From a virus: DNA of 25,168 bases. The notes under the pieces are model-generated. The model worked only from the letters and a program-made list of their open reading frames with translations. It ran no database searches and was not told the origin of the DNA. Each line of letters opens with the position of its first letter. The first letter of the stretch is position 1. Positions 6,724 to 24,957 of this stretch are shown here, one piece after another. Position numbers and translations under genes: made by a program. The stretch covers positions 1 to 25,168 of the IMG/VR virus record IMGVR_UViG_3300033146_000629. One strand, written 5' to 3'.

Positions 6724-6746
6724 AGGGGAATACTCTTGCTTAGTAA

Positions 6747-6780
6747 TTTGTAAAAGGTAACATATTATTATATATGTTTG
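6747..6780 (+). promoter_or_regulatory. Putative Bacteroidota-type promoter for the rightward genes
   Basis: TTTG (6747-6750), 22 nt spacer, TATGTTTG (6773-6780): this fits the TTG-N17-23-TAnnTTTG housekeeping promoter of Bacteroidota. Transcription would start around 6787, giving a leader of about 105 nt that holds the long inverted repeat and the second GGTAACATAT. The first GGTAACATAT lies inside the spacer. Confidence 0.45.
6756..6765 (+). repeat. GGTAACATAT element, copy 1
   Basis: First of four intergenic copies of GGTAACATAT on the plus strand. This copy lies between the -33 and -7 parts of the putative promoter and is followed by a small AACATAT/TATATGTT dyad. Confidence 0.45.
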
Positions 6781-6851
6781 GTTATCGGAGGAAATAATTA
6801 TATAGTCATTAATTAAGTATATTATATATATTATTCCTCTAGAATAACCAA
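6778..6851 (+). repeat. Imperfect inverted repeat, 74 bp
   Basis: Outer arms TTGGTTAT (6778-6785) and ATAACCAA (6844-6851) pair over 8 bp. Inner arms GAGGAAATAAT (6788-6798) and ATTATTCCTC (6830-6839) pair over 10 bp with one bulge. The centre is AT-only. It overlaps the end of the promoter's -7 element and forms most of the leader of the first rightward message, so it may be an operator, a 5'-stabilising hairpin or an origin structure. Confidence 0.5.
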
Positions 6852-6852
6852 T

Positions 6853-6874
6853 GGTAACATATATATAAAGTAAG
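6853..6874 (+). repeat. GGTAACATAT element, copy 2 (long form)
   Basis: GGTAACATATAT followed by ATAAAGTAAG, 18 nt before the first rightward gene. Copy 3 (9135-9154) is almost identical over 20 nt, differing by an AT insertion and one G/C change. Confidence 0.5.
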
Positions 6875-6891
6875 TTATATAAACACACAAT

Positions 6892-7182
6892 ATGGGATTA
6901 AATTCAAACGAGCAAAGAAGAGAGAAGTTATATACAGGACTTGAGTTTCACTTTAGTAAATCAGGTGAGCTTAAGGAAATATATAATGGTAAGAAAGAGT
7001 TGGTAGACCCACTCAATATATCATTTCTTAGAAACCTAATAAAGATTGGTGACGAGAATAGTAGAATAATGTTTGCTGACCTTGAGCAATACATAGAGGT
7101 GTTAAGCCCTAGATTCGGGAAGAAGTCAAACATTAATACAACCAGCAAAGGGATGGTGGTATCTAATATTAATATACATTAA
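6892..7182 (+). CDS. Hypothetical protein, 96 aa, first rightward gene
   Basis: Starts MGLNSNEQRREKLYTGLEF. Mixed helical and polar; KSGELKEIYNGKKELVDPLNISFLR in the middle and a loose polar tail (INTTSKGMVVSNINIH). Not recognised. The ATG at 6892 is preceded by AAACACACAAT, a leader shared by several plus-strand genes, and by GGTAACATAT copy 2. It heads a run of four closely spaced genes ending with the PhoH-like ATPase. Confidence 0.7.
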   Translation: MGLNSNEQRREKLYTGLEFHFSKSGELKEIYNGKKELVDPLNISFLRNLIKIGDENSRIMFADLEQYIEVLSPRFGKKSNINTTSKGMVVSNINIH

Positions 7183-7192
7183 AACACACAAT

Positions 7193-7417
7193 ATGGAAAA
7201 CAAATTTCACGAAGTATTTGATACTATGCGAGATCTAGAAGATGTTCAGCAAGTATTCGTTAACAATGCCAAACAGATGGCTAAGGATAATCCAAGATAC
7301 ATAGTCCTGTATAAGACAGATGTTATGATTGATGTGGATGAGAATGGTAAAGAGGTTCCTTCAATGACGTGCGCCTTAAGCATATCTAAGAAGGACGAGA
7401 CAGTCAGACGCCTGTAA
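7193..7417 (+). CDS. Hypothetical protein, 74 aa
   Basis: Starts MENKFHEVFDTMRDLEDVQQ, a predicted N-terminal helix pair, followed by a strand-turn-strand (YIVLYKTDVMIDVDENGKE). No known family. An AAAACACACAAT leader precedes the ATG, and the stop overlaps the next start (TAATG). Confidence 0.7.
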   Translation: MENKFHEVFDTMRDLEDVQQVFVNNAKQMAKDNPRYIVLYKTDVMIDVDENGKEVPSMTCALSISKKDETVRRL

Positions 7418-7761
7418 TGGATAGACCTTATGAGTTCCAAACCATTCAAACCCTTATGGGCGAAGAGGTTAGGATAGATGAAGAGACTGGTGAACAATAT
7501 GTTGAGCAAATCATAATAGCTCAGGATAAGAAATTAAGAAAGACTATTGACTTATTTAATGTCTCGTCTTATGAAGAATTCACCAATGATAAGGGCGCTG
7601 TATATTCAAAGAGATGTATGATTGAGGTGAACGGTGAGCCCGTAGTGGTTGCTAAATCTTATGAAGATATCAAGAAGATTATATCAGAGCTTAATGTTAA
7701 TTCAAAAAAAAGTGTAGGATTTGGAAGATCTAGTGATAAAAAAGAGAAAGTCTCCAGTTAG
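7417..7761 (+). CDS. Hypothetical protein, 114 aa
   Basis: Starts MDRPYEFQTIQTLMGEEVRI. Acidic first third (DEETGEQYVEQIII), then a helix and two strands (RCMIEVNGEPVVVAKSYED), and a basic serine/lysine tail. Not recognised. Translationally coupled to the gene before it (TAATG). The PhoH-like gene either follows its stop by 1 nt or overlaps its end, depending on that gene's start. Confidence 0.7.
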   Translation: MDRPYEFQTIQTLMGEEVRIDEETGEQYVEQIIIAQDKKLRKTIDLFNVSSYEEFTNDKGAVYSKRCMIEVNGEPVVVAKSYEDIKKIISELNVNSKKSVGFGRSSDKKEKVSS

Positions 7762-7762
7762 A

Positions 7763-8383
7763 ATGGACATTTCCCTTAATGACGAACAGAAGTTAGCTAA
7801 GGCGACTATATTAAGTCATGACATATCTATTATAACAGGCCCGGCAGGAACAGGTAAGTCTCTTTTAAGCGCAGCAATTGCAATGGACATGTTTCTTAAT
7901 AACGGCTATGATAAGATTGTTATAGCACGTCCTTATGTAGTTGACGAGAGCTTTGGATTTACTCCTGGAGGGGTTGATGAGAAGTTTGAGGGGTTAATAG
8001 CTGCATTGATGGAGAACTTTGAGAGAGTATACGGAAGTAACGCGTCTAAAAAGGCTAAGTTACGAAAGTATATTGAAGAGAAGAAGATTGAGATGGTTCC
8101 TATCGGGTTTATGAAAGGTAGGACATTTACTAATAGTATAATTATAATTGAAGAGGCTGAAGACATTACGCCTAAGCAGATGAAGTTAATCCTAACGAGA
8201 TTAGGGATAGGTTCTATAATGTTAATTAATGGAGATGTGTTACAGACGTCAATTAGAGGAACAAGTGGTTTACAGCGCTTATTTGAAGCTGAGCCAAATA
8301 TAGAAAGGATGTGTCATGTTGGATTAACCAAGAACCACAGAGCCTCTATTGTCCAGGACATACTTAAATATTTTGAAGAATGA
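7763..8383 (+). CDS. phoH: PhoH-like P-loop ATPase, 206 aa
   Basis: ATP-binding domain of the PhoH family, common in phages and thought to act on RNA or nucleotide metabolism; its phage role is not settled. Visible motifs: Walker A GPAGTGKS (residues 26-33); the PhoH-specific VIARPYV...ESFGFTPGG; Walker B and following residues in SIIIIEEAEDITPKQMKL; sensor-like LINGDVLQ; and a C-terminal NHR-type arginine region. The length suits the short single-domain phage form. The ATG at 7763 sits 1 nt after the previous stop; an in-frame TTG at 7721 would add 14 residues but overlap the upstream gene by 41 nt. Confidence 0.92.
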   Translation: MDISLNDEQKLAKATILSHDISIITGPAGTGKSLLSAAIAMDMFLNNGYDKIVIARPYVVDESFGFTPGGVDEKFEGLIAALMENFERVYGSNASKKAKLRKYIEEKKIEMVPIGFMKGRTFTNSIIIIEEAEDITPKQMKLILTRLGIGSIMLINGDVLQTSIRGTSGLQRLFEAEPNIERMCHVGLTKNHRASIVQDILKYFEE

Positions 8384-8664
8384 TAATAAATATAGTAGGG
8401 ACGCCGTTATTTCCCAAGTTTAATATAATTAAATCAATGGATAATTTATATGACAGTGATGGCAAAGTAATTCATAATGTAGATAACGTTTACAATATAG
8501 AATGCAGAACAAGAGTTGGTGAAATTGTTATTAGCGAATCTAAAGTTGTGAGAACATATGGGGATATAGGAAATACAAATGAAGTGATTAACTTAATAGC
8601 CAAATGTAATCAGAGAGCATACGATATACTATTCCCTGAAGAAGCATTGATTACAATATTATAA
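8380..8664 (+). CDS. Hypothetical protein, 94 aa
   Basis: Starts MIINIVGTPLFPKFNIIKS. Beta-rich first half with YNIECRTRVGEIVISESKVVRTYG, then a helix (NEVINLIAKCNQRAYDIL). Not recognised. The ATG overlaps the PhoH stop (ATGA), so it is probably translated with it and may be functionally linked. Confidence 0.7.
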   Translation: MIINIVGTPLFPKFNIIKSMDNLYDSDGKVIHNVDNVYNIECRTRVGEIVISESKVVRTYGDIGNTNEVINLIAKCNQRAYDILFPEEALITIL

Positions 8665-8683
8665 ATTAAATAAATATACAGAT

Positions 8684-8815
8684 ATGAATGCACACGAAAG
8701 GAGTTTTGCTATTGACGCCCTTAACAGGGTGTTACAAACGGCAAAACAATTAGATGATAAAAATCTAATTAAAATTGTTACCGATAAGATTATTAATTTA
8801 ATAAATTTACAATAA
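8684..8815 (+). CDS. Hypothetical helical protein, 43 aa
   Basis: The ATG at 8684 gives MNAHERSFAIDALNRVLQTA..., 43 aa. It is an amphipathic helical peptide (QLDDKNLIKIVTDKIINLINLQ) without export or membrane signals. It fills the gap between 8664 and the membrane protein gene, whose possible upstream ATG (8817) follows its stop by 1 nt. Function unknown. Confidence 0.6.
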   Translation: MNAHERSFAIDALNRVLQTAKQLDDKNLIKIVTDKIINLINLQ

Positions 8816-8860
8816 TATGAGAAAGAGAAATTTACCAGCAGTATCTCATTGTTCGGCGGG

Positions 8861-9133
8861 ATGTTGACGATGATGGAACTATTAGGATCGATTGGGCTAA
8901 CTATGATTGTTACCCAATCGTTTCTGTTTAAAGGAGTTAGAGATTACTTCTCTAATAAATGGATTAAGAAAGTATTAAATTGCACACAATGTTTCGGCTT
9001 TTGGAGCGGAGTATTAGTAGGTGTAATGGAATGGAATTATATAACTGACATATTGCTATTAGGGTTTTCTTCTAGTATATTAAGTTATGTTTTATACCTA
9101 TTAATAAAGCCATTAGTTATTAAATACGACTAA
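8861..9133 (+). CDS. Small membrane protein with CxxC-GFW motif (DUF1360-like)
   Basis: About 90 aa with an N-terminal hydrophobic helix (MELLGSIGLTMIVTQSFLF), then KVLNCTQCFGFWSGVLVG and a second long hydrophobic segment (ITDILLLGFSSSILSYVLYLLI). A CxxCxGFWxG motif between two helices is characteristic of DUF1360-type inner-membrane proteins, frequent in phages and of unknown function. The start is unclear: ATG codons at 8861, 8870 and 8873 and a TTG at 8849 are in frame. An ATG at 8817, 1 nt after the previous stop, is one base out of frame; a single extra base in AAATTT would join it, giving an N-terminus MRKRKFTSS. Confidence 0.7.
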   Translation: MLTMMELLGSIGLTMIVTQSFLFKGVRDYFSNKWIKKVLNCTQCFGFWSGVLVGVMEWNYITDILLLGFSSSILSYVLYLLIKPLVIKYD

Positions 9134-9134
9134 A

Positions 9135-9154
9135 GGTAACATATATAAACTAAG
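9135..9154 (+). repeat. GGTAACATAT element, copy 3 (long form)
   Basis: GGTAACATATATAAACTAAG directly after the stop of the membrane protein gene and 33 nt before the 90 aa gene, followed by two blocks of ACACAC repeats. Nearly the same 20 nt as copy 2, in the same position relative to a gene start. Confidence 0.5.
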
Positions 9155-9187
9155 ACACACACAAAACACACACAAAACACATTTTAC

Positions 9188-9460
9188 ATGAACGAAAAGA
9201 AAGAAGAGATTATTGACACTGTAGAATCTACAGAGGAAATTAAATTAGATGAGAGTAACTCAGGCGAATACACATTCGATAAAGAACCTGAGGTTAAGCA
9301 AGAGATACCAGAATTTGAGTATTTAGCAATATCTAAAGATGACTACGAGAAGTTCGTTGCTGGTATAGACATATTGAATGATGATATGAAACGATACTTC
9401 GGTGCGTTGCTGCATAATAAATTCAAAGTTGTTCCAATGCCTAAAGAAGTTAAAGAGTAA
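9188..9460 (+). CDS. Acidic hypothetical protein, 90 aa
   Basis: Starts MNEKKEEIIDTVESTEEIK. The first ~40 residues are highly acidic and probably disordered; the rest is helical (DYEKFVAGIDILNDDMKRYF) with a basic end (KFKVVPMPKEVKE). Not recognised. The leader has ACACACACAAAACACACACAAAACAC, the longest A/C-rich stretch in the window, after GGTAACATAT copy 3. Its stop overlaps the next start (TAATG). Confidence 0.7.
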   Translation: MNEKKEEIIDTVESTEEIKLDESNSGEYTFDKEPEVKQEIPEFEYLAISKDDYEKFVAGIDILNDDMKRYFGALLHNKFKVVPMPKEVKE

Positions 9461-9837
9461 TGACTGCAGGCTTTAAAACTATTAATATAAAGTCTGAAGG
9501 CATTAACGAATCTATACTTTATTACATAAAATCAATTTCATTCATACATAAAATAACAGCACCTAAAGATCAGAAGGCGTTATCTCTACTTATCAGTAAG
9601 TATATAGAGTTGTCCAAGGATGTTCTTAAAGAGAAGTTAATAAACACATTATTGTTCTCTAAAGATTCATCAGATGAAATAAAGGCTGGGGCTAATATGA
9701 ATAAACATGAATATTCTGTATTTTTAAAGAAGTTAGAAGAGCGAAATATACTAAAGGAAAACACACTGCGTAAAAGCGTAGTTCCTAAAATCAATGATGA
9801 CAATTCTATAGAGTTAAGATTAAAATTCACAATATAG
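9460..9837 (+). CDS. Winged-helix-like hypothetical protein, 125 aa
   Basis: Starts MTAGFKTINIKSEGINESI. The middle reads as a helical DNA-binding domain: a QKALSLLISKYIEL helix, VLKEKLINTLLFS, then NKHEYSVFLKKLEERNIL as a recognition-type helix and a strand with VVPKINDD...LRLKFTI as a possible wing. Related-looking proteins occur near packaging genes in Bacteroidota phages. The prediction is from pattern only; a regulator or packaging accessory is possible. Coupled to the upstream gene by TAATG. Confidence 0.7.
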   Translation: MTAGFKTINIKSEGINESILYYIKSISFIHKITAPKDQKALSLLISKYIELSKDVLKEKLINTLLFSKDSSDEIKAGANMNKHEYSVFLKKLEERNILKENTLRKSVVPKINDDNSIELRLKFTI

Positions 9838-9846
9838 ATTTGCGTT

Positions 9847-9881
9847 CGATGTCTTAGGGTTTGTGTGTTTCCCGGACGTCG
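9847..9881 (+). other. Hairpin in the leader of the HU-like gene
   Basis: CGATGTC (9847-9853) pairs with GACGTCG (9875-9881), one T-G, with GGG/CCC inside and a loop containing GTGTGTTT. It ends 12 nt before the ATG at 9894 and follows the previous stop by 9 nt. There is no U-run. A TAGATTTG -7 match at 9835-9842 lies just upstream but has no -33 partner. Confidence 0.35.
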
Positions 9882-9893
9882 TTCGTTATCGTT

Positions 9894-10118
9894 ATGATAG
9901 ACAAGACATTAAATAGAATAACACAAGAGGTATCTGACGAGTTAGGTATTCCTCAAGAGCATATAATAGCTATACTTAATTCACAACATGATGATATATT
10001 GTCATGTGCAAAGAATAAGGACATAGACTTTGTATTCTTAAAATATTTTGGAACATTAGCCACTCACGCAAATTATAGAAGGCCGTTCCGTAATGATAAA
10101 CACACAAAGAATGAGTAA
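9894..10118 (+). CDS. Short HU/IHF-like hypothetical protein, 74 aa
   Basis: The frame is open from 9861, but the ATG at 9894 (MIDKTLNRITQEVSDELG) is the sensible start, after a hairpin. Pattern: two helices (TQEVSDELGIP, EHIIAILNSQHDDILSCAK), then DFVFLKYFGTLATHANY, reminiscent of the helix-helix-strand GFGxF start of HU/IHF proteins, though lacking the DNA-binding arm. Short phage proteins of this type are frequent in Bacteroidota phages. It overlaps the GroES-like gene by 8 nt (ATGAGTAA). Confidence 0.65.
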   Translation: MIDKTLNRITQEVSDELGIPQEHIIAILNSQHDDILSCAKNKDIDFVFLKYFGTLATHANYRRPFRNDKHTKNE

Positions 10119-10464
10119 GAAATTTAAAGTTAGCAATATACTACCGTTAGGGGTAGATATTATAACGACTGCGAATAAAGCAGATCGATTACCATCTGGT
10201 ATCATTATGCCAGAGACATCCAATACAGTAAATCCTATTCAGGAAGTATTAGCTGTAGGCCCACACGAGCACTCAGTAAGCGTTGGTGATATAGTGGAAA
10301 TCAATCCAGAGTCATTTCCTTACGAAAATGTTAAGGCTAAGCATGATGTTGGAGCAGATACCAAAGGTAAGATTATTCTTCCTATATACACAGATGACGA
10401 TAAAGTTGAATTCTTAAAGATAAGAGCAGCTAATGTCTTGTGGGGAATTAAAGGTGATGAATAA
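10111..10464 (+). CDS. GroES-like co-chaperonin, 117 aa
   Basis: MSKKFKVSNILPLGVDIITT followed by LPSGIIMPE, VLAVGPHEHSVSVGDIVEI and a C-terminal KIRAANVLWGI. These correspond to the GroES PLgDRV strand, the mobile-loop region with GIxxPE, the VvavGpG...vkvGDxV core and the terminal strand. An insertion before the last strand makes it longer than bacterial GroES (~97 aa), as in phage T4 gp31-type co-chaperonins, which partner host GroEL to fold the capsid protein. The ATG at 10111 is preferred to one at 10093 because it carries the ACACACAAAG leader and the ATGAGTAA overlap. Confidence 0.8.
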   Translation: MSKKFKVSNILPLGVDIITTANKADRLPSGIIMPETSNTVNPIQEVLAVGPHEHSVSVGDIVEINPESFPYENVKAKHDVGADTKGKIILPIYTDDDKVEFLKIRAANVLWGIKGDE

Positions 10465-10688
10465 TGGGTAAATGGATTTGTTATAATGATGAATGCGACA
10501 GATGTAATTTAGAAGTTAACGAAACTGTTGAAGTTATTTCATTTACCGATGAAGGTAAAGTTAATAGCGCTACTAAGTGTCCTAGATGCGGTGGTAATAG
10601 AAAAGAAGTTTTACAAGATGGAGATTATTCAAAAATAGTTTCAATCGGTCATAATATTTCTGGTGGAATTCATAAACACCATGAATAA
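10464..10688 (+). CDS. Zinc-ribbon-like protein, 74 aa
   Basis: Starts MGKWICYNDECDRCNLEVNE; Cys6, Cys11 and Cys14, then KCPRCGGNRKEV with Cys39 and Cys42. Two cysteine knuckles about 25 residues apart give a rubredoxin/zinc-ribbon layout. The tail IGHNISGGIHKHHE adds several His. It could bind nucleic acid or be a small structural factor; no partner is known. Its ATG overlaps the GroES-like stop (TAATG), and an intrinsic terminator follows, closing this operon. Confidence 0.7.
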   Translation: MGKWICYNDECDRCNLEVNETVEVISFTDEGKVNSATKCPRCGGNRKEVLQDGDYSKIVSIGHNISGGIHKHHE

Positions 10689-10710
10689 ATATTAAATTGT
10701 TTTTAAAGAT

Positions 10711-10739
10711 AGCTGGGCACATTGTGTTCGGCTTTCTTT
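10711..10739 (+). terminator. Intrinsic terminator before the packaging genes
   Basis: AGCTGGGCAC (10711-10720) pairs with GTGTTCGGCT (10724-10733) over 10 bp, including three G-T pairs, with loop ATT, followed by TTCTTT. It separates the PhoH-GroES block from the terminase block. Confidence 0.65.
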
Positions 10740-10767
10740 GGTAAAGGCAATTACTAAAACACACAAA

Positions 10768-11313
10768 ATGAGATTATTTGAAATCGTTGATTTTGAGGTA
10801 GTTGTGAATCCTGTAGCATATACCCTAGCCCCGTTTAAAGCGGTTCTGGACAAGTATAGTAAAAAAGATAAGGAGTATGTTAATTCAGAGATGGCTTACA
10901 TATACTACTTTTCGGACTGGACAAGCGATTATTCCTCAGAGACAGATAAAGATAAGCGTAAAGAGAATATATTATCAGAAGTATTCACTGCGGACAGTAG
11001 TAAATTAAAGATAGACTCCGTTACAGACGACGCTATAGCCTTTTACGAGGAAAAGCAACAAACACTATCAATGTTATTGTATATTGATGCTAAGGGCGCT
11101 ATAAATAAGATACGAGAGTATTTCAGGGCTGTTGATTTAATGGCTATGGACAAGAATGATAAGCCTATCTATGATATATCTAAGCTAACTACAACTATAG
11201 AGAAGAGTGCCTCACTAGTGGCTAAAATGGCTGAGCTAGAGGATGCTATCAAGAAAGAGAAGCAAGCATCATCGAAAATACGTGGTGTTGACTCAATTGG
11301 ACTATTTGAATAA
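10768..11313 (+). CDS. Putative terminase small subunit (by position), 181 aa
   Basis: The frame opens at 10738, but the ATG at 10768 (MRLFEIVDFEVVVNPVAYTL) has the AAAACACACAAA leader and is taken as the start. The protein is helical with an aromatic patch (EMAYIYYFSDWTSDYSS), a central EEKQQTLSMLLYIDAKGAINK helix and a C-terminal coiled segment (AKMAELEDAIKKEKQASSK) ending RGVDSIGLFE. Similar proteins precede TerL in Bacteroidota phages. No HTH is obvious, so the small-terminase role rests on its place directly before TerL with overlapping stop and start (TAATG). Confidence 0.6.
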   Translation: MRLFEIVDFEVVVNPVAYTLAPFKAVLDKYSKKDKEYVNSEMAYIYYFSDWTSDYSSETDKDKRKENILSEVFTADSSKLKIDSVTDDAIAFYEEKQQTLSMLLYIDAKGAINKIREYFRAVDLMAMDKNDKPIYDISKLTTTIEKSASLVAKMAELEDAIKKEKQASSKIRGVDSIGLFE

Positions 11314-13571
11314 TGGAGTTTAATAATATTCAGACATCATTAGATAAAGCCAAAGAGATGTTTGAGCATTACACATGGCGGAAAGAGGCATATGGTGACC
11401 TTGTGGAATTTATTGATACAATACCATTCCTCAGAACAATATCATCTAACAATAGGCCGTTTGCTAGAACTTTAGAGAGAGATAGTGACGGTAGAGCTAT
11501 AATAGATATTACAAACCCTCCTATATTAGAGGACATGGACTTCTTTAGAAAGCCAGCTCTAGAATTTATAAGGACGGGGAAATATACACAATTGTATAAG
11601 AACGGTAATCCAAATTCAGAATATATGAAATTTTGGACTAGCGAAGAATATAAATGCGAACATGGATTAGTTAGAGAGTCTGACGGCATGTGGATAACTG
11701 GTTATAATTATTGGTATTGGAATTACAGCCCAATCATGTTAACCAAAGATATAGGTAAAGTGAATAAAGATGGTTCTGTTAGAGCTGAAAGAATATATAC
11801 ACATCCAGCCCCATGGGATCATGATGTAACATACTTTCACTATTTAGATCAAGCGGCAGAATCTGGTAATCACGCAGCTATAATAAAGGCACGTGGTAAG
11901 GGTTATTCATACAAAGCAGGATCAATGCTCACAAGGAACTTAATGATGTTAAAAAACACTGTTAGTTTCGCATTCGCTGCAATGGACGAATATCTACTTG
12001 GTGGAGACGGTTTGCTTACCAAGGCATGGGATACTGCCGATTTTGTTAATGTAAATACACCCTTTAAAAAACACTTCAGTCCTAATAAAGCTGATGAGAA
12101 ACGTTCTGCATATTACGATATGGACGACGCTGCTTACAAGGGTTATAAATCCATAGTCCGTGGGGTTATAGTAAACAAGCCATCAAAGACTCGTGGTAAG
12201 AGATCTAAGATAGCATTATTTGAGGAGGCGGGATCGTTCCCTAACCTACTGAAGGCTTGGAATATATACAGATCATCAATCGAGGATGGCGGCTCTGTCT
12301 TCGGGCAAGCTATTGCATTCGGAACTGGTGGTGATGAAAATTCAGACAATCTAAGTTCATTAGATGAAATGTTCTATTATCCAAGAGGATATAAGATACA
12401 TGCATTATCTAATATATATGACAAGAATGCCAGTAATTCTGATTGTGCATTTTTCGTTCCGACATACATGAATCGTAAAAATTGTTACGATAATAATGGA
12501 AATAGCGATGTAGTGAAAGCCATGGCTGAGGTTATCATAGGACGTCTTACTGTAAAGTATGGCGCTAGTGATAGTAATGCATTGACACAAACGAAAGCTG
12601 AGCACCCTGTTACTCCTGTAGATGCCTTAATGAGAATAGGAACATCAGTGTTTCCTGTTGCTGATATAAAGGATTATCTAACTGAGATACTTCCTAATCA
12701 AGAGTCATTTGTGTCTGATCACTATGTCGGTGATCTGCATTTTTCTGGAGACAAGTCAGTATCATGGAGACTTAATGCAGATAGAGTTGCGTTAAGAACA
12801 TATCCTATTAAGGAGTCAGATCAGTCGGGCGCTGTAGAGATATATGAATTACCAAAGAAGGGACTTGATAACAAGCCAGCAAACGATAGATATATAATAG
12901 GGGTTGACCCTGTTGACGCTGATACAGGAACGTCTTTATTTAGTGCATTCGTATTTGACTTATGGACTGATAAATTTGTTGCAGAATTCACTGGTAGACG
13001 CAAGACCGCTAATGAGAATTTTGAGATTGTATTGAGGATGTCATTATTTTATAATGCGCAAATAAACTACGAGAATAATCTTAAGGGGTTGTTTTCTTAC
13101 TTTGATAATAGAAACTTTGCTTACTTACTAATGGATACACCTGCTATATTAAAGGATCAGGAGATGATTAGGAGTATAGGATATGGGAATAAAGCGAAAG
13201 GGACTCCAGCTAATAAAGCAGTGAACCTATGGGCTAGAAAGTTACTAGCTGATTATATGCTAGAGAGACATGAGGAAGCCTCCTCTGAAGAAGTAATGAC
13301 TGTTGATGGTAATAATTTTGAAAAAGCAAATGCTCCAACGATTAAGTTAACGACTATTAGATCGTTAGGATTGTTAAGAGAGGCGTCTCAATGGAATCCA
13401 GATGGCAACTTTGATAGAGTATCGAGTGCAGGAATGGTAATGATTGCTAGGGCTGAATTATACAAGCATACTGAAAGGAATAAATTTAACGAGAGAATAG
13501 AAGATCCATTAGAAAATGATGAATTTTTAAATAATAATGATGGAAATTACGGAACGTTTGAATTAATATAA
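11313..13571 (+). CDS. terL: Terminase large subunit, 752 aa
   Basis: DNA-packaging motor: an ATPase that drives DNA into the prohead and a nuclease that cuts it. ATPase domain: a Walker A variant KARGKGYSYK (Arg194-Ser199), Walker B IALFEEAGSF with Glu304/Glu305, and a GTGGDE segment as coupling motif. Nuclease domain: YIIGVDPVDAD with Asp532 as the first RNase H-like metal ligand and LLMDTP further on. It is longer than classical TerL (~450-600 aa), with ~180 N-terminal residues before Walker A, as in crAss-like and related Bacteroidota phages. The start at 11313 overlaps the upstream stop; the portal follows 10 nt after its end. Confidence 0.93.
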   Translation: MEFNNIQTSLDKAKEMFEHYTWRKEAYGDLVEFIDTIPFLRTISSNNRPFARTLERDSDGRAIIDITNPPILEDMDFFRKPALEFIRTGKYTQLYKNGNPNSEYMKFWTSEEYKCEHGLVRESDGMWITGYNYWYWNYSPIMLTKDIGKVNKDGSVRAERIYTHPAPWDHDVTYFHYLDQAAESGNHAAIIKARGKGYSYKAGSMLTRNLMMLKNTVSFAFAAMDEYLLGGDGLLTKAWDTADFVNVNTPFKKHFSPNKADEKRSAYYDMDDAAYKGYKSIVRGVIVNKPSKTRGKRSKIALFEEAGSFPNLLKAWNIYRSSIEDGGSVFGQAIAFGTGGDENSDNLSSLDEMFYYPRGYKIHALSNIYDKNASNSDCAFFVPTYMNRKNCYDNNGNSDVVKAMAEVIIGRLTVKYGASDSNALTQTKAEHPVTPVDALMRIGTSVFPVADIKDYLTEILPNQESFVSDHYVGDLHFSGDKSVSWRLNADRVALRTYPIKESDQSGAVEIYELPKKGLDNKPANDRYIIGVDPVDADTGTSLFSAFVFDLWTDKFVAEFTGRRKTANENFEIVLRMSLFYNAQINYENNLKGLFSYFDNRNFAYLLMDTPAILKDQEMIRSIGYGNKAKGTPANKAVNLWARKLLADYMLERHEEASSEEVMTVDGNNFEKANAPTIKLTTIRSLGLLREASQWNPDGNFDRVSSAGMVMIARAELYKHTERNKFNERIEDPLENDEFLNNNDGNYGTFELI

Positions 13572-13581
13572 AACAATTGAT

Positions 13582-15987
13582 ATGAGTAATGTAAAACTAC
13601 CTAGGCAAAGGTTGGCATATAAAAGAAAGGGTGAGCAGTGGCGGAAAGATAACATTGACGCCATAGATAAAGGTTACTCAATGTATTACAATGGCGGATT
13701 AAGATTGTCATTGGCTGAAAAGGTTATAAATCAAAATCTATATGAAGGGGTATTAGATACTTCCGATATGGCTAAATACCTAAACCCTTACGGAATACAA
13801 GGTTATGATATAGATAAAGGGTTGGGGCATCATTCAATAATAGTTCCTAAGATAGATGTATTAGTTGGGGAAGTTGCTAACAGGCAAATTGACTGGGAAG
13901 TATTTGTAACTAACCCTGACGCAGTATCTTCTAAGATAAAGAATAAGAGAGCGGATATATCAAAGAGGTTAATGGATATAATACAAGCTAAGTATCCAGA
14001 AGATAACGAGCAGGCCAAGAATGCAATGGAAGCCGAAATGGCTAAATTGCAGAAGTATGCAAACTATTCATGGAAGGACTTAAAAGAGTTACGCGCTAAC
14101 AGAATACTAAAATACTTCTCTACAAAAGATAATTTCAAAAACATATTTGCGGAAGGGTTCAAGGATGCTTTAATACTTGGTGAAGAGGTTTATCAGACAG
14201 ATATAATCTCAGGAGCACCTAAGTTATTCAAGTTAAATCCAATGAATGTCCATACTGTAAGATCAGGGAATTCCTCTAAGATAGAAGATTCTGACATAAT
14301 CATAATTGATGACCACTGGAGTCCAGGCAGAATAATTGATACGTTTTACGAGCAATTAAAGCCTGATGAAGTTAGTCGTATTGCAGGAGATGATGACACA
14401 GATAATATGGAATCATCGGATAATGTTGAGGATTCGTTTGTGTTATTTGAGAGTGATGTTGATAAACAAACAATATCTGGAGTTCAGGGAGCTATAGAGA
14501 TAGCTGAGATAAACGGACATAAATTCTCTCCAGATTACAGAGATGATACAGGGAATGTTAGAGTTCTTAGAGTCTACTGGAAATCGCTACGTAGAATAAA
14601 GAAAGTTAAGTATTACGACGAACAGGCTAATACACAATATAAGATAATGGGGGAGCAATATATCCCTGACAAGATAAGAGGTGAAGAAGTAAAGGATTTA
14701 TGGATTAATGAGTGGTGGGAAGGCACAAAGATAGGTAAGGATATATATATTCAGATGAGACCTGTTGCTACACAATACACGAGCGTTAACCAACCAGCCA
14801 TAACATCAATACCTATAACAGGGGAGCTATACAATACTAATCAAGGAAAAGTTGTTTCTCTTGTTACGAGAATGAAGTCATATCAATATCTATACGATGC
14901 TATATGGGATAGGCTTAATAAAGCTATATCTAAAAACATGGGTAAGATACTTGAGGTTGATGTTGCTAAGATTCCCGCTAATTGGGATGTTGGTAAATGG
15001 ATGCACTATGCTACAACAATGGGTATAGGTGTAGTTGATTCATTCAAGGAAGGAAATAAAGGTAAGGCTACCGGGATGCTTGCAGGAAACTTCAATACAA
15101 CAGGAAAGGTTCTTGATGTTGAAACAGGAAGTTACATACAACACCACATACAGATGCTTGAGTTTATTAAGCAAGAGATGTCCGAGATAGCCGGCATAAG
15201 TAAGCAGAGAGAAGGAACTATATCAAATAGAGAGACCGTTGGCGGAGTAGAGAGATCGGTTGCGCAATCGTCACATATTACAGAGTGGTGGTATCTTAAG
15301 CATGACGATGTTGTTCAGAGAACATTGGTCGCATTCTTAGAGGTTGCTAAAATAGCGCTTAAAGGAAATAAGGTCATGATGCAGAACATCTTGGACGATA
15401 GAAGTATCGAGATGTTTGAGGTTGATGGAGACCAATTTGCTGATGCTGATTATGATGTGTTATTAACATCTAATGAGAATACAGCGGCAATACGTCAACA
15501 GATACAGCAATTGGCTCAAGCAGCTATGCAGAATCAAATGGTTAATTTCTCAGATATGTTATATATATTCAATTCTAAATCCATTAATGATATTAGAAGA
15601 CGTATAGAGACAGCTGAGGCAGAGAAGCAACAACAGGCTTCAGAACAGGCTAAGGCTGACCAGGCTAATCAAAAGGTTATGCAAGAGCAGGCTCAATCCG
15701 CATTACAATTTGAGCAAGAGCTTAAGGCTAAGGAAATAGAAATAAAGATGTCAGAGTTAGAATTATCTAGATTAGAGAAAGATAGAGATTATAACTTAGA
15801 GGTTCTTAAATTACAACTTAGCGAAGAGGTCGATATGAGTAAAATAGAGTCTGAATTAAATAAGGTAGACGAAGAACTCGATCATAAAAAGAAAGAGCTC
15901 GAGGAGTTAAAGAGAGCTAATAAAGCAAATGAATCAATTAAAATGATAGCAGCTAAGAAACCTGCTTCATCTAGTAATAATATATAA
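13582..15987 (+). CDS. Portal protein, 801 aa
   Basis: Forms the dodecameric ring through which DNA enters and leaves the capsid. Assigned from its place between TerL and scaffold, its size, the early HHSIIVPKIDVLVGEVANRQIDWE segment typical of Bacteroidota phage portals, a central beta-rich wing/stem region, IAGISKQREGTISNRETVGG near residues 540-560 as in many portals, and a long C-terminal coiled coil (about residues 670-790, Q/A/K/E-rich, MSELELSRLEKDRDY...). That coiled coil would form the barrel or crown inside the capsid. The ATG at 13582 is preceded by AAAACAATTGAT. Confidence 0.9.
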   Translation: MSNVKLPRQRLAYKRKGEQWRKDNIDAIDKGYSMYYNGGLRLSLAEKVINQNLYEGVLDTSDMAKYLNPYGIQGYDIDKGLGHHSIIVPKIDVLVGEVANRQIDWEVFVTNPDAVSSKIKNKRADISKRLMDIIQAKYPEDNEQAKNAMEAEMAKLQKYANYSWKDLKELRANRILKYFSTKDNFKNIFAEGFKDALILGEEVYQTDIISGAPKLFKLNPMNVHTVRSGNSSKIEDSDIIIIDDHWSPGRIIDTFYEQLKPDEVSRIAGDDDTDNMESSDNVEDSFVLFESDVDKQTISGVQGAIEIAEINGHKFSPDYRDDTGNVRVLRVYWKSLRRIKKVKYYDEQANTQYKIMGEQYIPDKIRGEEVKDLWINEWWEGTKIGKDIYIQMRPVATQYTSVNQPAITSIPITGELYNTNQGKVVSLVTRMKSYQYLYDAIWDRLNKAISKNMGKILEVDVAKIPANWDVGKWMHYATTMGIGVVDSFKEGNKGKATGMLAGNFNTTGKVLDVETGSYIQHHIQMLEFIKQEMSEIAGISKQREGTISNRETVGGVERSVAQSSHITEWWYLKHDDVVQRTLVAFLEVAKIALKGNKVMMQNILDDRSIEMFEVDGDQFADADYDVLLTSNENTAAIRQQIQQLAQAAMQNQMVNFSDMLYIFNSKSINDIRRRIETAEAEKQQQASEQAKADQANQKVMQEQAQSALQFEQELKAKEIEIKMSELELSRLEKDRDYNLEVLKLQLSEEVDMSKIESELNKVDEELDHKKKELEELKRANKANESIKMIAAKKPASSSNNI

Positions 15988-15997
15988 TAAAACACAC

Positions 15998-17074
15998 ATG
16001 GAAGACGATTTTTTAGATTTAGAAATTTTAGATGAGGACATAACTCCTCTAAATGAACAGGATGAGGAACCACCTACTCCCGATGAGGTTATTGAAGAAC
16101 CAACACCTCCAGCCACTGAAGTTAATGATCCTGATGAGAATAGCACAAGGAATAAAACTGAAGTGACTGATCTTGCTGAAGGTGATGAGGGTGATGAAAT
16201 AGAGTTAAATGACGAAGAAGGTAACATATATGGCTTGTTATCAGCCGCATTAAAAGAGCAGGACTTCTTCAAGGACACTGACATAACTAACGTTAACGAT
16301 ATAGAGTCGTTATCTGAAGCGTTTAGATCAGAGGTTAAGAATAATGAATTGTCTGGATTAAATGATCAGCAAAAAAGAGTTCTTGAGGCGTTCCGTAATG
16401 GGGTTCCTGAATCTGAGATAATTAATAATGAAAGTGATTTCGAGAGATTAAATAACATAACTGACGAACAACTTAGTGATGAATCATTTGCTAAAACATT
16501 AATCATAGGAGACTTACTAGAAAAGGGTATATCTCAAGATAGAGCAGAGAAAATGTTTGATATGTATGTAGATACAGGAGACATGGAATCTGAGGCAAGA
16601 ATATCATTAGATAATAAGAAGAATAGCGTTAAAGCAGAGTATGATGCTAAGATGCAACAAATACAAGATAGTCGTGACGCGAGCATTAAGCGAGCTAACG
16701 ATTTACATACTAACATAAGTAAGAATATTGCTGATACAGAAGAGTTTATGGGAGACTATAAAGTAACGGACACGTTGAAGGATAAGGCTCAAAAGAATAT
16801 GAATTCGGTCGTTGGTTATACTGATGACGGACAGCCTTATAACGCTTTAATGAAAGCGCGAATGGATGACCCAGCTGACTTTGAATCAAAAATGTATTTA
16901 TTATTTACAATAACCGATGGATTTAGTAATCTCGGAGCATTCTCTAGAAAAGCTGAAAGTAAGGCAACTAAGGATCTTGAGATGAAACTAAGGAATAGTG
17001 GCACTGCTTCCATCAGTAAACCTTCTTTCCAATCAGGGCCTAAGGCCACTACCGGAGAGATTGTAGATGTTTAA
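15998..17074 (+). CDS. Putative scaffolding / capsid assembly protein, 358 aa
   Basis: Starts MEDDFLDLEILDEDITPLNE; the first ~90 residues are extremely acidic with prolines (EEPPTPDEVIEEPTPP), followed by helical segments and a long coiled coil (about residues 200-250, SVKAEYDAKMQQIQDSRDAS). An acidic disordered N-terminus plus a helical body directly between portal and MCP is the usual form of phage scaffolds, which guide capsid assembly and are lost before DNA entry. No protease motif is seen. Leader AAAACACAC before the ATG. GGTAACATAT also occurs inside this gene (16220-16229), where it encodes GNIY. Confidence 0.75.
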   Translation: MEDDFLDLEILDEDITPLNEQDEEPPTPDEVIEEPTPPATEVNDPDENSTRNKTEVTDLAEGDEGDEIELNDEEGNIYGLLSAALKEQDFFKDTDITNVNDIESLSEAFRSEVKNNELSGLNDQQKRVLEAFRNGVPESEIINNESDFERLNNITDEQLSDESFAKTLIIGDLLEKGISQDRAEKMFDMYVDTGDMESEARISLDNKKNSVKAEYDAKMQQIQDSRDASIKRANDLHTNISKNIADTEEFMGDYKVTDTLKDKAQKNMNSVVGYTDDGQPYNALMKARMDDPADFESKMYLLFTITDGFSNLGAFSRKAESKATKDLEMKLRNSGTASISKPSFQSGPKATTGEIVDV

Positions 17075-17100
17075 TATTAATTTAAAAAATGTAAATTAAA

Positions 17101-18588
17101 ATGGGAGCAAAATTAAGTCCATTTCAAATGACTGGCGCTAAGTCGCACGCTGGTCTGACTACTAAGAACCACTTAGGAGCAATGTATGCGCAAAAACCAC
17201 AATTACTTTCTAAGATTGTGCATAAAATGCTTGGAGCGTCAGGTGTATCAAATTTAGATACATTATTGAATTCGTTCCCTGCTAAATATGTAGAAACAGA
17301 TGATGACTTTACATGGAAATTAGTTGGGTCTTCTGATCGTAACATTCCATTGATTGAAGCTAGATATCAAGGGTCTACGGTAACCTCGTCAACAACTAAC
17401 GTTGGTGCATTTGGTGCTGAGATCGAGTTAGTCTTCGGAGAGAAGTATTTCTCTGATGTTAACGTAATTGTTGGTGAGAAGAATGAAGTTTACCAATTTA
17501 GAGTATTAGACGAGCCAGAAATGGAAGGAACTAATGCTGTATATAGAGTGTCATTAATGGGAGAGGCTGCCTCTGGTTGTCCTGGATCTGAGTTAGTTGC
17601 CAACAAGCGATTCTCTAAAGATTTTAGTCCTGTTGAAGATACAATGTCTATCAAGGGTGGTGACATTGCGTTTAGCTCTCCAGTAGAGATGCGTAATGAA
17701 TTTACTACTATTCGTATGGAGCATAAGGTTCCTGGTAATATGATGGGTAGACGTGTTGGTGGTCAAATTGCAGGTATCGATTTAAACGGTAATGTTAAGC
17801 AAGTTGATACATGGATGCAAGAAGTTGAATGGGTATTTGAGCAAGAGTTTTCTCGTGAGAAGTCAAGAGCTTTAATGTTTTCTCGTTCTAACAGAGATGC
17901 TACTGGCCAATACCATGATATCGGTAAATCGGGTTACGTTATCAAGCAGGGTGCTGGTATCCGCGAGCAAATGGAAGTATCTAATACATATTTCTATAAT
18001 GACTTCGCATTAGAGATGCTAGAGTCTATTCTTTATGATCTTTCAGAAGGTCGTTTAGACATGGGTGACAGAAAGTTTATGTTAAGAACTGGTGAGCGTG
18101 GAGCTGCTCAGTTTCATAAAGCTGTAATGACTGCTGCTTCAGGGTGGACTTCATTAACAACTAATAACCCTGCGACTTATCAGTCAGCAAGTTCTCCTTT
18201 ACATACAAATGCATTAAAGGCTGGATTCCAATTCACTGAGTGGATGGCTCCTAATGGATTGCATATCATGGTAGAGGTAGATCCTATGTATGATGATAAG
18301 GTTCGTAATAAAGTTCTTCACCCAGATGGTGGAGTTGCTGAATCTTACAGATATGACTTACTTTATTTAGGTTCTAAAGACGAGCCAAATATTCAGAAGG
18401 TTTATATTAAGGGTAATGACGAGCTTAGAGGATACTCTAATGGTTTTAGAAATCCTTTCACAGGAGAAGTTAATACACTAATGACAACAATGGAGGATAG
18501 CGCAACTTACACACGCTATACAACATTTGGTTCTGCTGTAATTGACGCATCTAGAACAGTAGCGATTATACCTACTATTTTAGCATAA
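17101..18588 (+). CDS. Major capsid protein, 495 aa
   Basis: Assigned from its position after portal and scaffold and from features shared with capsid proteins of crAss-like and other Bacteroidota phages: FTWKLVGSSDRNIPLIEARY near residue 75, GAFGAEIELVFGEKYF, GYVIKQGAGIREQMEVSNTYFYNDF, a LSEGRLDMGDRKFMLRTGERG segment around residue 320, and SYRYDLLYLGSKDEPNIQKVY towards the end. This pattern belongs to the HK97-like fold. Codons are richer in C-ending preferred forms (GGT, CGT, TCT, TTC) than in its neighbours, consistent with very high expression. It has its own terminator 22 nt downstream. Confidence 0.88.
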   Translation: MGAKLSPFQMTGAKSHAGLTTKNHLGAMYAQKPQLLSKIVHKMLGASGVSNLDTLLNSFPAKYVETDDDFTWKLVGSSDRNIPLIEARYQGSTVTSSTTNVGAFGAEIELVFGEKYFSDVNVIVGEKNEVYQFRVLDEPEMEGTNAVYRVSLMGEAASGCPGSELVANKRFSKDFSPVEDTMSIKGGDIAFSSPVEMRNEFTTIRMEHKVPGNMMGRRVGGQIAGIDLNGNVKQVDTWMQEVEWVFEQEFSREKSRALMFSRSNRDATGQYHDIGKSGYVIKQGAGIREQMEVSNTYFYNDFALEMLESILYDLSEGRLDMGDRKFMLRTGERGAAQFHKAVMTAASGWTSLTTNNPATYQSASSPLHTNALKAGFQFTEWMAPNGLHIMVEVDPMYDDKVRNKVLHPDGGVAESYRYDLLYLGSKDEPNIQKVYIKGNDELRGYSNGFRNPFTGEVNTLMTTMEDSATYTRYTTFGSAVIDASRTVAIIPTILA

Positions 18589-18594
18589 GACTAA

Positions 18595-18604
18595 GGTAAC
18601 ATAT
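18595..18604 (+). repeat. GGTAACATAT element, copy 4
   Basis: Lies between the MCP stop (18588) and its terminator hairpin, 59 nt before the next gene. This copy lacks the ATAAAnTAAG extension of copies 2 and 3. Being upstream of the terminator, it would have to be in the MCP 3' UTR or initiate a transcript that reads through the hairpin. Confidence 0.4.
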
Positions 18605-18610
18605 AATTTA

Positions 18611-18642
18611 CAGAGAGGGAGCGATCCTTCTCTGTTTTATTA
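18611..18642 (+). terminator. Intrinsic terminator after the major capsid gene
   Basis: CAGAGAGGG (18611-18619) pairs with CCTTCTCTG (18626-18634), 9 bp with one G-T, loop AGCGAT, followed by TTTTATTA. It allows separate high-level expression of the capsid gene. Confidence 0.8.
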
Positions 18643-18663: not shown

Positions 18664-19584
18664 ATGGCAAAAAAGAAAGCAGATGCAGTAGAGAAAACTC
18701 CACTGCCAGAGATATCAGAGGTAAAAGCTGTATCTAGGGTTAAGAGTTTTTCATTACCAAACAATTCAATACTAGTAAGATATATTAAGAGGCAGAAGGG
18801 GAATATCTCGAATAAGAATCATATTGCATATGGTGGAATGTTAGAGGGCTCCATACAGTATCTTAATCCTAAAAAAGGAGCTAATGGACAATACGTTAAT
18901 GTATTAAGTGACTTAGAACAAAGTTATCTTGAAAAGAAATTAGCATTAGACGAGGGTGGTCTTTCCATATATAAGAAAGAAGGAAACTTCTTCAAGGAAT
19001 TAAGACCAATTCCATTGACTAAAGAGGGGTTCATGTTGGACTTATCTGATCCTGTTGAATACATTAAATATAAAGTATTATTATCATATTCTGACCTTAT
19101 ATCACCGTCAGTAACAGAGACCGGGAATAAGCGAACATATCGCTTTGAAATGGTAGCTAAAGGTGACGATGATAAAGTAGCTAAGAAAGGAATCGATTAC
19201 AAGCGACAAGCTTACAAGATCCTGTCTAATATAGAGGACAATAGAGATCAATTAGCAGCAGCTATTAGACTAACAACCGGAAAGAAAGTTTCTACCGAAT
19301 CTGGACACGAATGGCTAATTGGTCAAGTTGGTAATGAGATTGAGAAAAATGCTAAATCATTCTGTGAGATAATGACTGATGACTTGTTTGAAATCAAGCA
19401 CTTTATCGAGAAAGGTATAGACAAGAAGGCTATCGTAAAAGATAGAGGTCTTTATAGAACAATTGACGGAATAGATTTATGCTACGAAGGAGACATTCCT
19501 ACGCTAGAGAAAGCCATTGTATTTTTAACAGATATACAAAACCAAGATATTAAATTACTTATTCAATCTAAAATTAATAAATAA
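18664..19584 (+). CDS. Conserved head-region protein, 306 aa
   Basis: Starts MAKKKADAVEKTPLPEISEV (basic, flexible), then VKSFSLPNNSILVRYIKRQK, NKNHIAYGGMLEGSIQYLNP, LSDLEQSYLEKKLALDEGGL and FMLDLSDPVEYIKYKVLLSYSDLI. I recognise this as a type that follows the MCP in many Bacteroidota phages, with AYGGML and LDLSDPxxYIxYK as its hallmarks; its function is not established. Virion component or assembly factor is the likely role. Leader AAAAACACACA. Its stop overlaps the ATG of the next gene (TAATG). Confidence 0.75.
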   Translation: MAKKKADAVEKTPLPEISEVKAVSRVKSFSLPNNSILVRYIKRQKGNISNKNHIAYGGMLEGSIQYLNPKKGANGQYVNVLSDLEQSYLEKKLALDEGGLSIYKKEGNFFKELRPIPLTKEGFMLDLSDPVEYIKYKVLLSYSDLISPSVTETGNKRTYRFEMVAKGDDDKVAKKGIDYKRQAYKILSNIEDNRDQLAAAIRLTTGKKVSTESGHEWLIGQVGNEIEKNAKSFCEIMTDDLFEIKHFIEKGIDKKAIVKDRGLYRTIDGIDLCYEGDIPTLEKAIVFLTDIQNQDIKLLIQSKINK

Positions 19585-20435
19585 TGACAGTTGCTGAAAT
19601 GAATGATCGGTTTAATGTTTTATACGATAACGCTGATCAAGAAGCTCCAGGTTTAAATTTATATGAGAAATCATTATATTTAACAATGGCAGCGAATAGC
19701 GTTGTTGATAAAATAATTAAACCAATTACTCAAAAAGGCAGCAAGAGCAATCGAGATGATGATGCTAACAGAGATAAACTAAGAGGACTTGAGAGATACT
19801 GGTCGCAGGATACTAATGTAAGTAAGGATGAAATTATTGATGGTAGTTTAAAGAATGTTTCAACTACTGTAATCAACAATAGTGATATAGACTCTTTATT
19901 TATATGGCTACCTGATAACTTAGCTCATATTGACTACGAGAGACTGCAAGTCGTAACTAGGGACGAATGGAATAGCGATAAGATATCGCTCCCAATAAAA
20001 CCTACTAGACAGTCGTTTGTGGAAAGAATCATAAGAGACCCGTTTAATAAACCAAATATTCTTCAAGGATATAGAATTAATCATACTGATAGATCATCAA
20101 GACCTTACGGGGAGATCATAATGCCACATGATTATTCCTTTGATATGTATGAGTGTTGGTATTTTAAGTATCCAAGAGCAATTGTATTAGTAGATTTTGA
20201 TACAGAGTATCCTGGAATGAATTTATCATTAGACGGCTTCACAAAGCCTTACTCGGAAGACGAGCCATTATCACCACCAACGGCTTTATCACCAGCTACG
20301 GATATAAATCCAGATATGCATGATGATATTATAGAAGAGGCGGTAAGGATTGCTATATTACATTATAGAGAGAATACATTACAGAATAATGTTCAAATAG
20401 ATCAATTGAACAGACAGGAAGAATCAATTAAATAA
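19584..20435 (+). CDS. Putative head-tail connector / ring protein, 283 aa
   Basis: Starts MTVAEMNDRFNVLYDNADQE, then APGLNLYEKSLYLTMAANSVV, the pattern of a conserved protein in crAss-like and related phages that forms a ring under the portal. Later parts include DSLFIWLPDNLAHIDYERLQ, a proline-rich stretch (PLSPPTALSPATDINP) and a C-terminal helix (IIEEAVRIAILHYRE). The place after the capsid module supports a connector role. The ring assignment is from remembered family features and gene order. Confidence 0.7.
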   Translation: MTVAEMNDRFNVLYDNADQEAPGLNLYEKSLYLTMAANSVVDKIIKPITQKGSKSNRDDDANRDKLRGLERYWSQDTNVSKDEIIDGSLKNVSTTVINNSDIDSLFIWLPDNLAHIDYERLQVVTRDEWNSDKISLPIKPTRQSFVERIIRDPFNKPNILQGYRINHTDRSSRPYGEIIMPHDYSFDMYECWYFKYPRAIVLVDFDTEYPGMNLSLDGFTKPYSEDEPLSPPTALSPATDINPDMHDDIIEEAVRIAILHYRENTLQNNVQIDQLNRQEESIK

Positions 20436-20466
20436 TTATATTAATAAATTAAAACAAGTTTAAATT

Positions 20467-21372
20467 ATGTCAACATTTGGAGAAAACCAAGTAAATAAGT
20501 TCTTTGTTGCTACAGCATCGACAGATGCAGGAGTTGCAAACATTGGAGCTTTATCAGAGGGAGAGGTTCAGGCGTTCGCCTCAGACGGAACTAAGGCAAC
20601 TGGTACCGAAGATAAGTTTATAGTAGCTACACTTAAAGGTGGGATTACTTACACGTCAGAAATTATAGAAAGCGCAAAGGTTAAGAGAACTGTAAAAGAT
20701 GATACAGGAACAACAAATCTTACAACTTATGATATTGCCTTTACAGGAACACCTGTCGCAGGAGAGTATGTTAGCGCTATCTTCTTTATAGATAATTACG
20801 GTGCTAATCAAGGATCGGGACAACCTTTTCCATTCCATATCGGATACACTATCCAGGCATCTGACACAGCTACAGACGTAGTTAATGGTCTTAAGGCTAA
20901 TTTGCTATTAACAACTGCTGCTACATCAGATATGCCTATCACGGATAACACATCTGTTACAAGCACATGGAAAGTTGTTTGCGGAAGAACACCTTTCTCC
21001 TTAGGGAAAATGGATGGTAAACCATTAGTTACTAAGATTTCTGTTAGAACAAAGAATACAGGATTATCTGCAGCAGTAACTGAAGGAACGACTACTTCTA
21101 ACAATGGTATTGAAATTGCAAACCTAGAATGGTTTACATTGGGTAATACTGGAGATATTTATAGAGGAGTTGGATATCCTAATAATTTCGAGGGTGATTA
21201 CAATGTAACACCAACTGTAGCTTATGAGACTATTAATAGTTCTTATTACAGTGAAAGAATTAGTGCTCCTGGAGATAAGCAAATGGCTCAATACATAGTT
21301 GTTGCAGATACTGCCAATTTGGTTCAATTTGAAGCTTCTATTGAGACTATCTTAGGGATTACTTTAGCATAA
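20467..21372 (+). CDS. Virion structural protein, 301 aa (tail tube or decoration candidate)
   Basis: Starts MSTFGENQVNKFFVATASTD. Mostly beta, threonine/alanine-rich, with repeated strands (VKRTVKDDTGTTNLTTYDIAF, TSTWKVVCGRTPFSL) and a C-terminal helix-strand (MAQYIVVADTANLVQFEASI). Its own strong terminator and favoured codons suggest an abundant protein. In Bacteroidota phages a similar GENQV-start protein is a common virion component; a tail tube or capsid decoration role is plausible and cannot be separated here. Confidence 0.7.
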   Translation: MSTFGENQVNKFFVATASTDAGVANIGALSEGEVQAFASDGTKATGTEDKFIVATLKGGITYTSEIIESAKVKRTVKDDTGTTNLTTYDIAFTGTPVAGEYVSAIFFIDNYGANQGSGQPFPFHIGYTIQASDTATDVVNGLKANLLLTTAATSDMPITDNTSVTSTWKVVCGRTPFSLGKMDGKPLVTKISVRTKNTGLSAAVTEGTTTSNNGIEIANLEWFTLGNTGDIYRGVGYPNNFEGDYNVTPTVAYETINSSYYSERISAPGDKQMAQYIVVADTANLVQFEASIETILGITLA

Positions 21373-21390
21373 TAATATTAACCTATAATC

Positions 21391-21425
21391 TAAGGGTGGA
21401 TGGTAATTCATTCACCCTTTTTTTT
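21391..21425 (+). terminator. Strong intrinsic terminator
   Basis: AAGGGTG (21392-21398) pairs with CACCCTT (21413-21419); ATG/CAT pair further inside; a run of eight T follows. Ends the 301 aa structural gene, 16 nt before the next ATG. Confidence 0.88.
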
Positions 21426-21440
21426 GCTTAAATTTTAAAT

Positions 21441-22109: not shown

Positions 22110-22110
22110 T

Positions 22111-22338
22111 ATGATACCTACTGTAGGGAATACTCTAGCGACTACTGATTATGAGACTATAATTCTCATGGATCAATACACAAAAAAGCTGAAGATACAT
22201 GGTGTATCTGATGCTAAGAAATTGTCTATAATGATGATTGTAACAGATCTTCTTAAAGACGACAACGTAATAGATAAAGATAAATTAGATCTTAATTTAA
22301 TATTAATTAATTTTAAAAAAACATTAAAAATATTTTAA
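22111..22338 (+). CDS. Hypothetical protein, 75 aa
   Basis: Starts MIPTVGNTLATTDYETIILM; helical, rich in K, D, L and I (KLSIMMIVTDLLKDDNVIDK). Lies 1 nt after the previous stop and 1 nt before the next ATG, so it belongs to the tail-region operon. A chaperone or small virion role is conceivable; not recognised. Confidence 0.65.
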   Translation: MIPTVGNTLATTDYETIILMDQYTKKLKIHGVSDAKKLSIMMIVTDLLKDDNVIDKDKLDLNLILINFKKTLKIF

Positions 22339-22339
22339 A

Positions 22340-22660: not shown

Positions 22661-22662
22661 TT

Positions 22663-24945: not shown

Positions 24946-24957
24946 AATATAAGTATT

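Follow-up and report, generated by a model that had tools for sequence, protein, structure and literature searches.

A clade-specific intergenic element as candidate core of late promoters in crAss-like phages

The 10-mer GGTAACATAT, repeated ahead of late-gene blocks in a fragment of a crAss-like phage, is by sequence comparison a real, conserved and clade-specific cis element. Its general form, GGTAAYATAT, probably serves, with moderate confidence, as the core by which late promoters are recognised in a small clade formed by this fragment and two related contigs (C6 and C7). At these promoters the element would replace the sigma-ABfr promoter (TTG-N19/20-TAnnTTTG) carried by most other crAss-like phages. 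Positions refer to the window, the whole 25,168-nt stretch of virus record IMGVR_UViG_3300033146_000629 that was analysed, unless another contig or locus is named.

Phage identity and copies of the element

The gene content of the window marks it as a fragment of a crAss-like phage (Crassvirales), with a crAss-type TerL, portal, MCP and ring protein in syntenic order. The matches to crAss-type PHROG families were 1.9e-94 for TerL, 9.9e-138 for the portal and 3.5e-137 for the MCP, and the TerL is 38-41% identical to those of the crAss001 group. Genes in the left 6.4 kb are on the minus strand, whereas all those from 6892 rightwards are on the plus strand and make up the late module, in which the order of HU-like, Cpn10-like, TerL, portal, MCP, dsDNA-binding and ring proteins is that of crAss001. 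The HU-like and Cpn10-like calls are weak Pfam matches, in the gene order of crAss001 Gp14-Gp19, and the last block contains PF25710 CrAss_Ring_3_4 (6e-19) and PF03629, the latter on g24. Neither a polymerase nor a sigma gene can be seen in the 25 kb of the window, and the window, C6 and C7 are all fragments of 20-25 kb that lack the transcription module.

An Rfam search of the window returned two tRNAs and nothing else. One is a normal tRNA-Val at 1872-1943 (-), and the other, at 4438-4509 (-) with 52 bits, has the anticodon UUA and would read the ochre stop TAA. Since TAA still ends the late genes, and reading TAA as sense, tried in one minus frame, opened up no long uninterrupted frames, this tRNA looks like suppression at most.

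The initial annotation had placed GGTAACATAT at four non-coding positions, each described as a short gap ahead of plus-strand genes, and once within the scaffold gene. All five copies proved to be exact matches on the plus strand, and the minus strand has none (Table 1). The four non-coding copies fall within 869 nt of late-arm gaps; copies 1 and 2, however, share one 445-nt divergent non-coding region instead of lying in separate short gaps. The agreement over about 20 nt noticed earlier between copies 2 and 3 is found only when a 2-nt gap is allowed and is not common to the other copies. The scaffold copy is judged, from its frame, to be a codon coincidence.

Table 1. Element copies, hairpins and gene blocks of the late arm
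Feature	Position	Strand	Remarks
Element copy 1	6756..6765	+	Divergent leader region; exact match to GGTAACATAT
Long AT-rich hairpin	6778..6851	+	Between copies 1 and 2; RNA fold z = -4.3
Element copy 2	6853..6862	+	39 nt (start to start) before the ATG of the first plus gene (6892); orthologue C7 2383 = L007:999
First late-arm gene block	6892..9133	+	Small genes, PhoH-like 7721-8383 (PHROG PhoH), g7
Element copy 3	9135..9144	+	Directly past the g7 stop, 53 nt before the g8 ATG (9188); orthologue L007:2411
Second late-arm gene block	9188..18588	+	g8, g9, HU-like, Cpn10-like, TerL, portal, scaffold, MCP
Coding copy of GGTAACATAT	16220..16229	+	In the scaffold gene, in frame GGT AAC ATA = Gly-Asn-Ile
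Element copy 4	18595..18604	+	Between the MCP stop (18588) and g18 (18664); orthologue L007:11492, with the same hairpin adjoining
Terminator-like hairpin after MCP	18610..18635	+	RNA fold z = -5.6; 5 nt downstream of copy 4
Third late-arm gene block	18664..25168	+	g18, tail ring protein (19584-20435), g20-g24

Both window 6447-6755 and L044:843-1390 are divergent non-coding regions with G-rich runs and without an Rfam match. In L044 a terminator-like hairpin lies about 190 nt past an element copy (1159), and the two are perhaps a small RNA unit.

Repetition, orientation and conservation

Dinucleotide shuffles of the whole window contained a mean of 0.044 copies of GGTAACATAT, with a maximum of 1. 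In the 869 nt of late-arm gaps, four copies of any one 10-mer were reached in 0 of 2000 dinucleotide shuffles, the maximum being 3, in 49 of them; as any 10-mer was counted, this result allows for the word having been picked afterwards. Scattering over coding DNA, which the initial annotation had proposed to look for, was not found. Although the window, C6 and C7 are about 89% coding and only about 11% non-coding, the sense copies of GGTAAYATAT in these three contigs number 9 in non-coding and 4 in coding DNA (Fisher p = 1e-6), with no antisense copy, so that all nine non-coding copies are sense.

The word is also recovered by unsupervised means. The non-coding DNA of the window late arm and of C7 was searched exhaustively for 10-mers in which no more than one column was R/Y. 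Apart from register shifts of it, GGTAAYATAT was the only word with two or more non-coding copies in both genomes, and the antisense control returned no word. When a matrix built from two of the genomes was scored on the third (about 40-50 thousand positions), most sites of the held-out contig came near the top of the ranking (ranks 3, 5, 6 and 7 for the window copies; 1, 2 and 5 for the C7 sites). When information was calculated for each column over 12 sites, it reached significance in the ten core positions alone, the extended consensus being RGKAAYATATW, and neither a -35-like partner nor any other conserved box was found in the 50 nt upstream and the 44 nt downstream of the copies.

The nearest relatives in an MCP scan were L006 (80% identical; contig C6) and L007 (74%; contig C7), and in the MCP tree the window, C6 and C7 form one clade with support 95/92. 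Exact GGTAACATAT is missing from both relatives, which have T in place of C. This C-to-T form, GGTAATATAT, stands in L007 at three gaps orthologous to those of the window: at 999, before the first plus gene; at 2411, after phoH and before g8; and at 11492, between MCP and g18. The C7 divergent gap is only 52 nt long, and there the element is mirrored for the minus gene, 11 nt before the plus ATG, as the palindrome ATATATTAC-tt-GGTAATATAT. An extra C7 copy lies at C7 1159, about 1.2 kb before the first plus gene. Coding copies in the relatives are mostly in the portal gene (C7, C6 and short relatives), with one more at the g18/g19 junction of C7. C6 has GTAATATATA at 490, 538 and 672 and GGGAATATATA at 1164, all sense and in a leader of about 1.2 kb; three of these four copies were found unguided by a repeat finder, as 31-nt repeats. 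Before g8 and after MCP the element is absent from C6, its copies being limited to the leader.

The element is clade-restricted. The 118 other non-redundant crAss-like loci (121 loci in all) provide 72.5 kb of late gaps and contain no GGTAAYATAT there. Over 20 relative records, GGTAAYATATA gave no more than isolated matches outside the clade, and matrix matches in distant relatives were scattered and not consistently at gaps. The longer pattern GCATAA-N-GGTAAYATATA occurred in 114 stretches across all IMG/VR, of which the only MCP-bearing one was the contig of C7 itself, and no relatives came out of scans with g20 and with a minus-strand gene. At L037:1258-1326, AGGGTAAAAT(A/T)TACC stands in three close copies that are similar to the element; this AGGGTAAAAT triplet was rejected as an instance of it, since the copies are clustered at one place in a GC-richer flank, away from late gene borders.

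Some other features were seen in these loci. A hairpin after MCP is common to most relatives (L006, L007, L008, L009, L010, L012, L022, L033 and L120), its sequence is not conserved, and it appears to mark a conserved terminator position. The TerL of L047 (3-1000) has an apparent in-frame intein-like stretch with a possible homing-endonuclease part, and that of L046 (200-300) an apparent short remnant-like insert, both seen by eye in the translation only.

Host-type and other known promoters

The primary sigma factor of Bacteroidota, sigma-ABfr, reads promoters with a -33 TTTG and a -7 TAnnTTTG box (PMC7366714), and the late genes of crAss001 and phi14:2 are thought to be transcribed by the host RNA polymerase (PMC8375218, PMC10136315). 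In the late gaps of the 118 other loci, TTG-N19-23-TAnnTTTG was found 103 times in sense and 15 times in antisense orientation, with a sharp spacing peak at N20 (66) and N19 (24) and a median of 30 nt from the start of the -7 box to the start codon. The late gaps of crAss001 contain TAnnTTTGY sites, mostly with an upstream TTG. An intergenic k-mer search of G003, G005 and crAss001 gave no dominant word, and the -7 box emerged only as a degenerate pattern. The counts from the 118 loci agree with the published view of transcription by the host polymerase and lend sequence support to the idea that most crAss-like phages have their late genes read via host-type promoters, and the survey of 118 loci offers a broad sequence map of these presumed host-read late promoters. 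No published late-promoter motif for crAss-like phages was found in the literature searched.

The window and its two relatives depart from this pattern. Sense TAnnTTTGY was seen 0 times in the three contigs against 7.5 expected (Poisson p = 5e-4), although the absence of the -7 box alone is not diagnostic because 12 further loci that have 300 nt or more of gaps lack it too. Full -33/-7 pairs show a weak deficit, with 1 seen, at the off-peak N22, against 3.9 expected (p = 0.10). The earlier statement that the repeat does not match the Bacteroidota consensus is accurate for 6853, 9135 and 18595, where TAnnTTTG is absent at -7, and needs qualifying for copy 1, which overlaps a TTG-N22-TAnnTTTG (6748-6780), the sole instance of the box beside a copy. 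The N22 spacing is rare in relatives, and no TTG or TTTG 19-21 nt upstream of a -7 box is present in the window, only the TTG-N22 at 6748.

The element resembles sigma-ABfr promoters in its placement, in sense gaps heading late-gene groups and tens of nt before the ATG (its starts being 21, 35, 39, 41, 53, 67 and 69 nt from it), but differs from them in having neither TTTG nor a -33 partner, and correctly spaced -33/-7 pairs are missing from the late gaps of the clade. The late genes of crAss001 and phi14:2 follow one another as in the window (HU, Cpn10, TerL, portal, MCP, ring proteins), whereas crAss001 carries TAnnTTTGY in its late gaps where the window clade carries GGTAAYATAT. T4-type late promoters consist of a single -10 box, TATAAATA, read by the sigma factor gp55, and the element, which may occupy a comparable place, is one compact AT-rich box of 8-11 bp, without a -35 box, before virion-gene blocks. 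Nevertheless its core is GGTAAYATAT and not TATAAATA, no gp55-like factor was identified in the fragment, and host and phage are unrelated. GTAAC is similar to the AAC-type -35 boxes of Bacteroidota ECF sigma promoters, but the second box of such promoters, about 16 nt downstream of the AAC box, has no counterpart here, as the element lacks a second conserved block 14-25 nt downstream. An E. coli-type sigma-70 promoter (TTGACA - 16-18 - TATAAT) was dropped as a reading, since the scan gave 96 matches against 84 +/- 9 in shuffles, no higher than these, and such matches are not common to the copies.

A probable late-promoter core and the competing readings

Of the functions proposed in the initial annotation, a phage-specific middle or late promoter fits best, given the sense-only orientation, the enrichment in gaps, the presence at three orthologous gaps, the C/T change and a clade without correctly spaced -33/-7 pairs, an activator site or a processing site being less probable. 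Being directional and compact, heading late gene groups and filling the 52-nt divergent gap of C7, where any plus-strand promoter must lie, the element is most simply read as a promoter core. It probably occupies the place of a -10/-7 box, about 5-10 nt upstream of the transcription start, and would need no -35/-33 partner, with transcripts that start in the divergent leader, ahead of g8 and in the gap from MCP to g18 and run into the late gene blocks. The departure from the host consensus makes a phage-specific factor likely. Since the element takes the place of the sigma-ABfr promoter, transcription in this clade probably needs a different specificity factor, either a phage polymerase or a phage-encoded sigma-like or activator protein working with the host enzyme.

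A wider and more tentative proposal, somewhat short of an even chance, is that in this crAss-like lineage the late genes have abandoned the primary promoter code of the host and now depend on a 10-bp element, which a transcription factor specific to the lineage or a phage polymerase would read. Late-gene activation in crAss-like phages has so far been mostly inferred, and one lineage is here marked out as apparently using something other than host-type late promoters. If true, this would be a promoter-specificity switch inside Crassvirales, and comparison of complete genomes of the lineage with those of its sisters should reveal the factor and, with it, a late transcription switch in a widespread phage group.

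The strongest competitor, though unlikely, is that the copies are bound by a regulator of the phage (activator, repressor or silencer) or some other DNA-binding protein and do not themselves form the promoter core. A dimeric protein could bind inverted pairs in divergent regions, as suggested by the palindromic C7 copy and by the window sequence after copy 1, which can pair with copy 2. The four C6 copies spread over about 700 nt of leader also speak for this reading. Most copies, however, are single and have no inverted partner (9135, 18595, L007:2411, L007:11492), and the lack of any other conserved promoter box near the copies leaves nothing else to serve as core.

A little less probable still is an element acting on RNA, at which an endonuclease would cut the polycistronic late mRNA or an end would be protected. 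The post-MCP copy is the chief argument for RNA processing and tells most against a plain promoter there. In the window (copy 4) as in C7, 4-5 nt separate this copy from the MCP terminator hairpin; a promoter would be awkwardly placed, since its transcript would open with the hairpin, while cleavage there would give a new 5' end that this hairpin protects, two copies being directly 5' of such a structure. Copies 9135, 18595, L007:2411 and L007:11492 are moreover within 10 nt past stop codons. Processing does not explain the copies in untranslated leaders that precede every plus gene (in C6 as many as four; in C7 one, some 1.2 kb ahead of the first plus gene) nor the one in the divergent gap of C7, where a promoter is needed, and an RNA structure common to the surroundings of the copies is absent.

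A replication-origin iteron or packaging signal is very unlikely: several copies do lie together in the divergent leader, with two there in the window and four in C6, but they also occur 2.3 and 11.7 kb into the late arm, dispersed at conserved gene borders and without a regular tandem array. Chance, left open in the initial annotation, could have repeated an AT-rich word or Gly-Asn-Ile codons and would account for the scaffold copy and for those in the portal genes of C7, C6, L043, L046 and L047, which are in-frame or codon-driven. As a reading of the element it is refuted at the statistical level by the shuffles, the positions kept in C7, the unsupervised recovery and the nine sense against zero antisense non-coding copies.

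Apart from the candidate promoter core, a second short sequence recurs near start codons. An AAACACA-like leader lies within 25 nt of the start codon in 6 of 26 plus genes of the window (in its late arm, for example, at 6878-6891, 7182-7192, 15988-15997 and 18655-18663) and in 5 of 27 genes of C6, compared with 0 of 20 in C7 and 24 of 1733 in the other loci, and is possibly a translation-initiation feature of the window/C6 pair.
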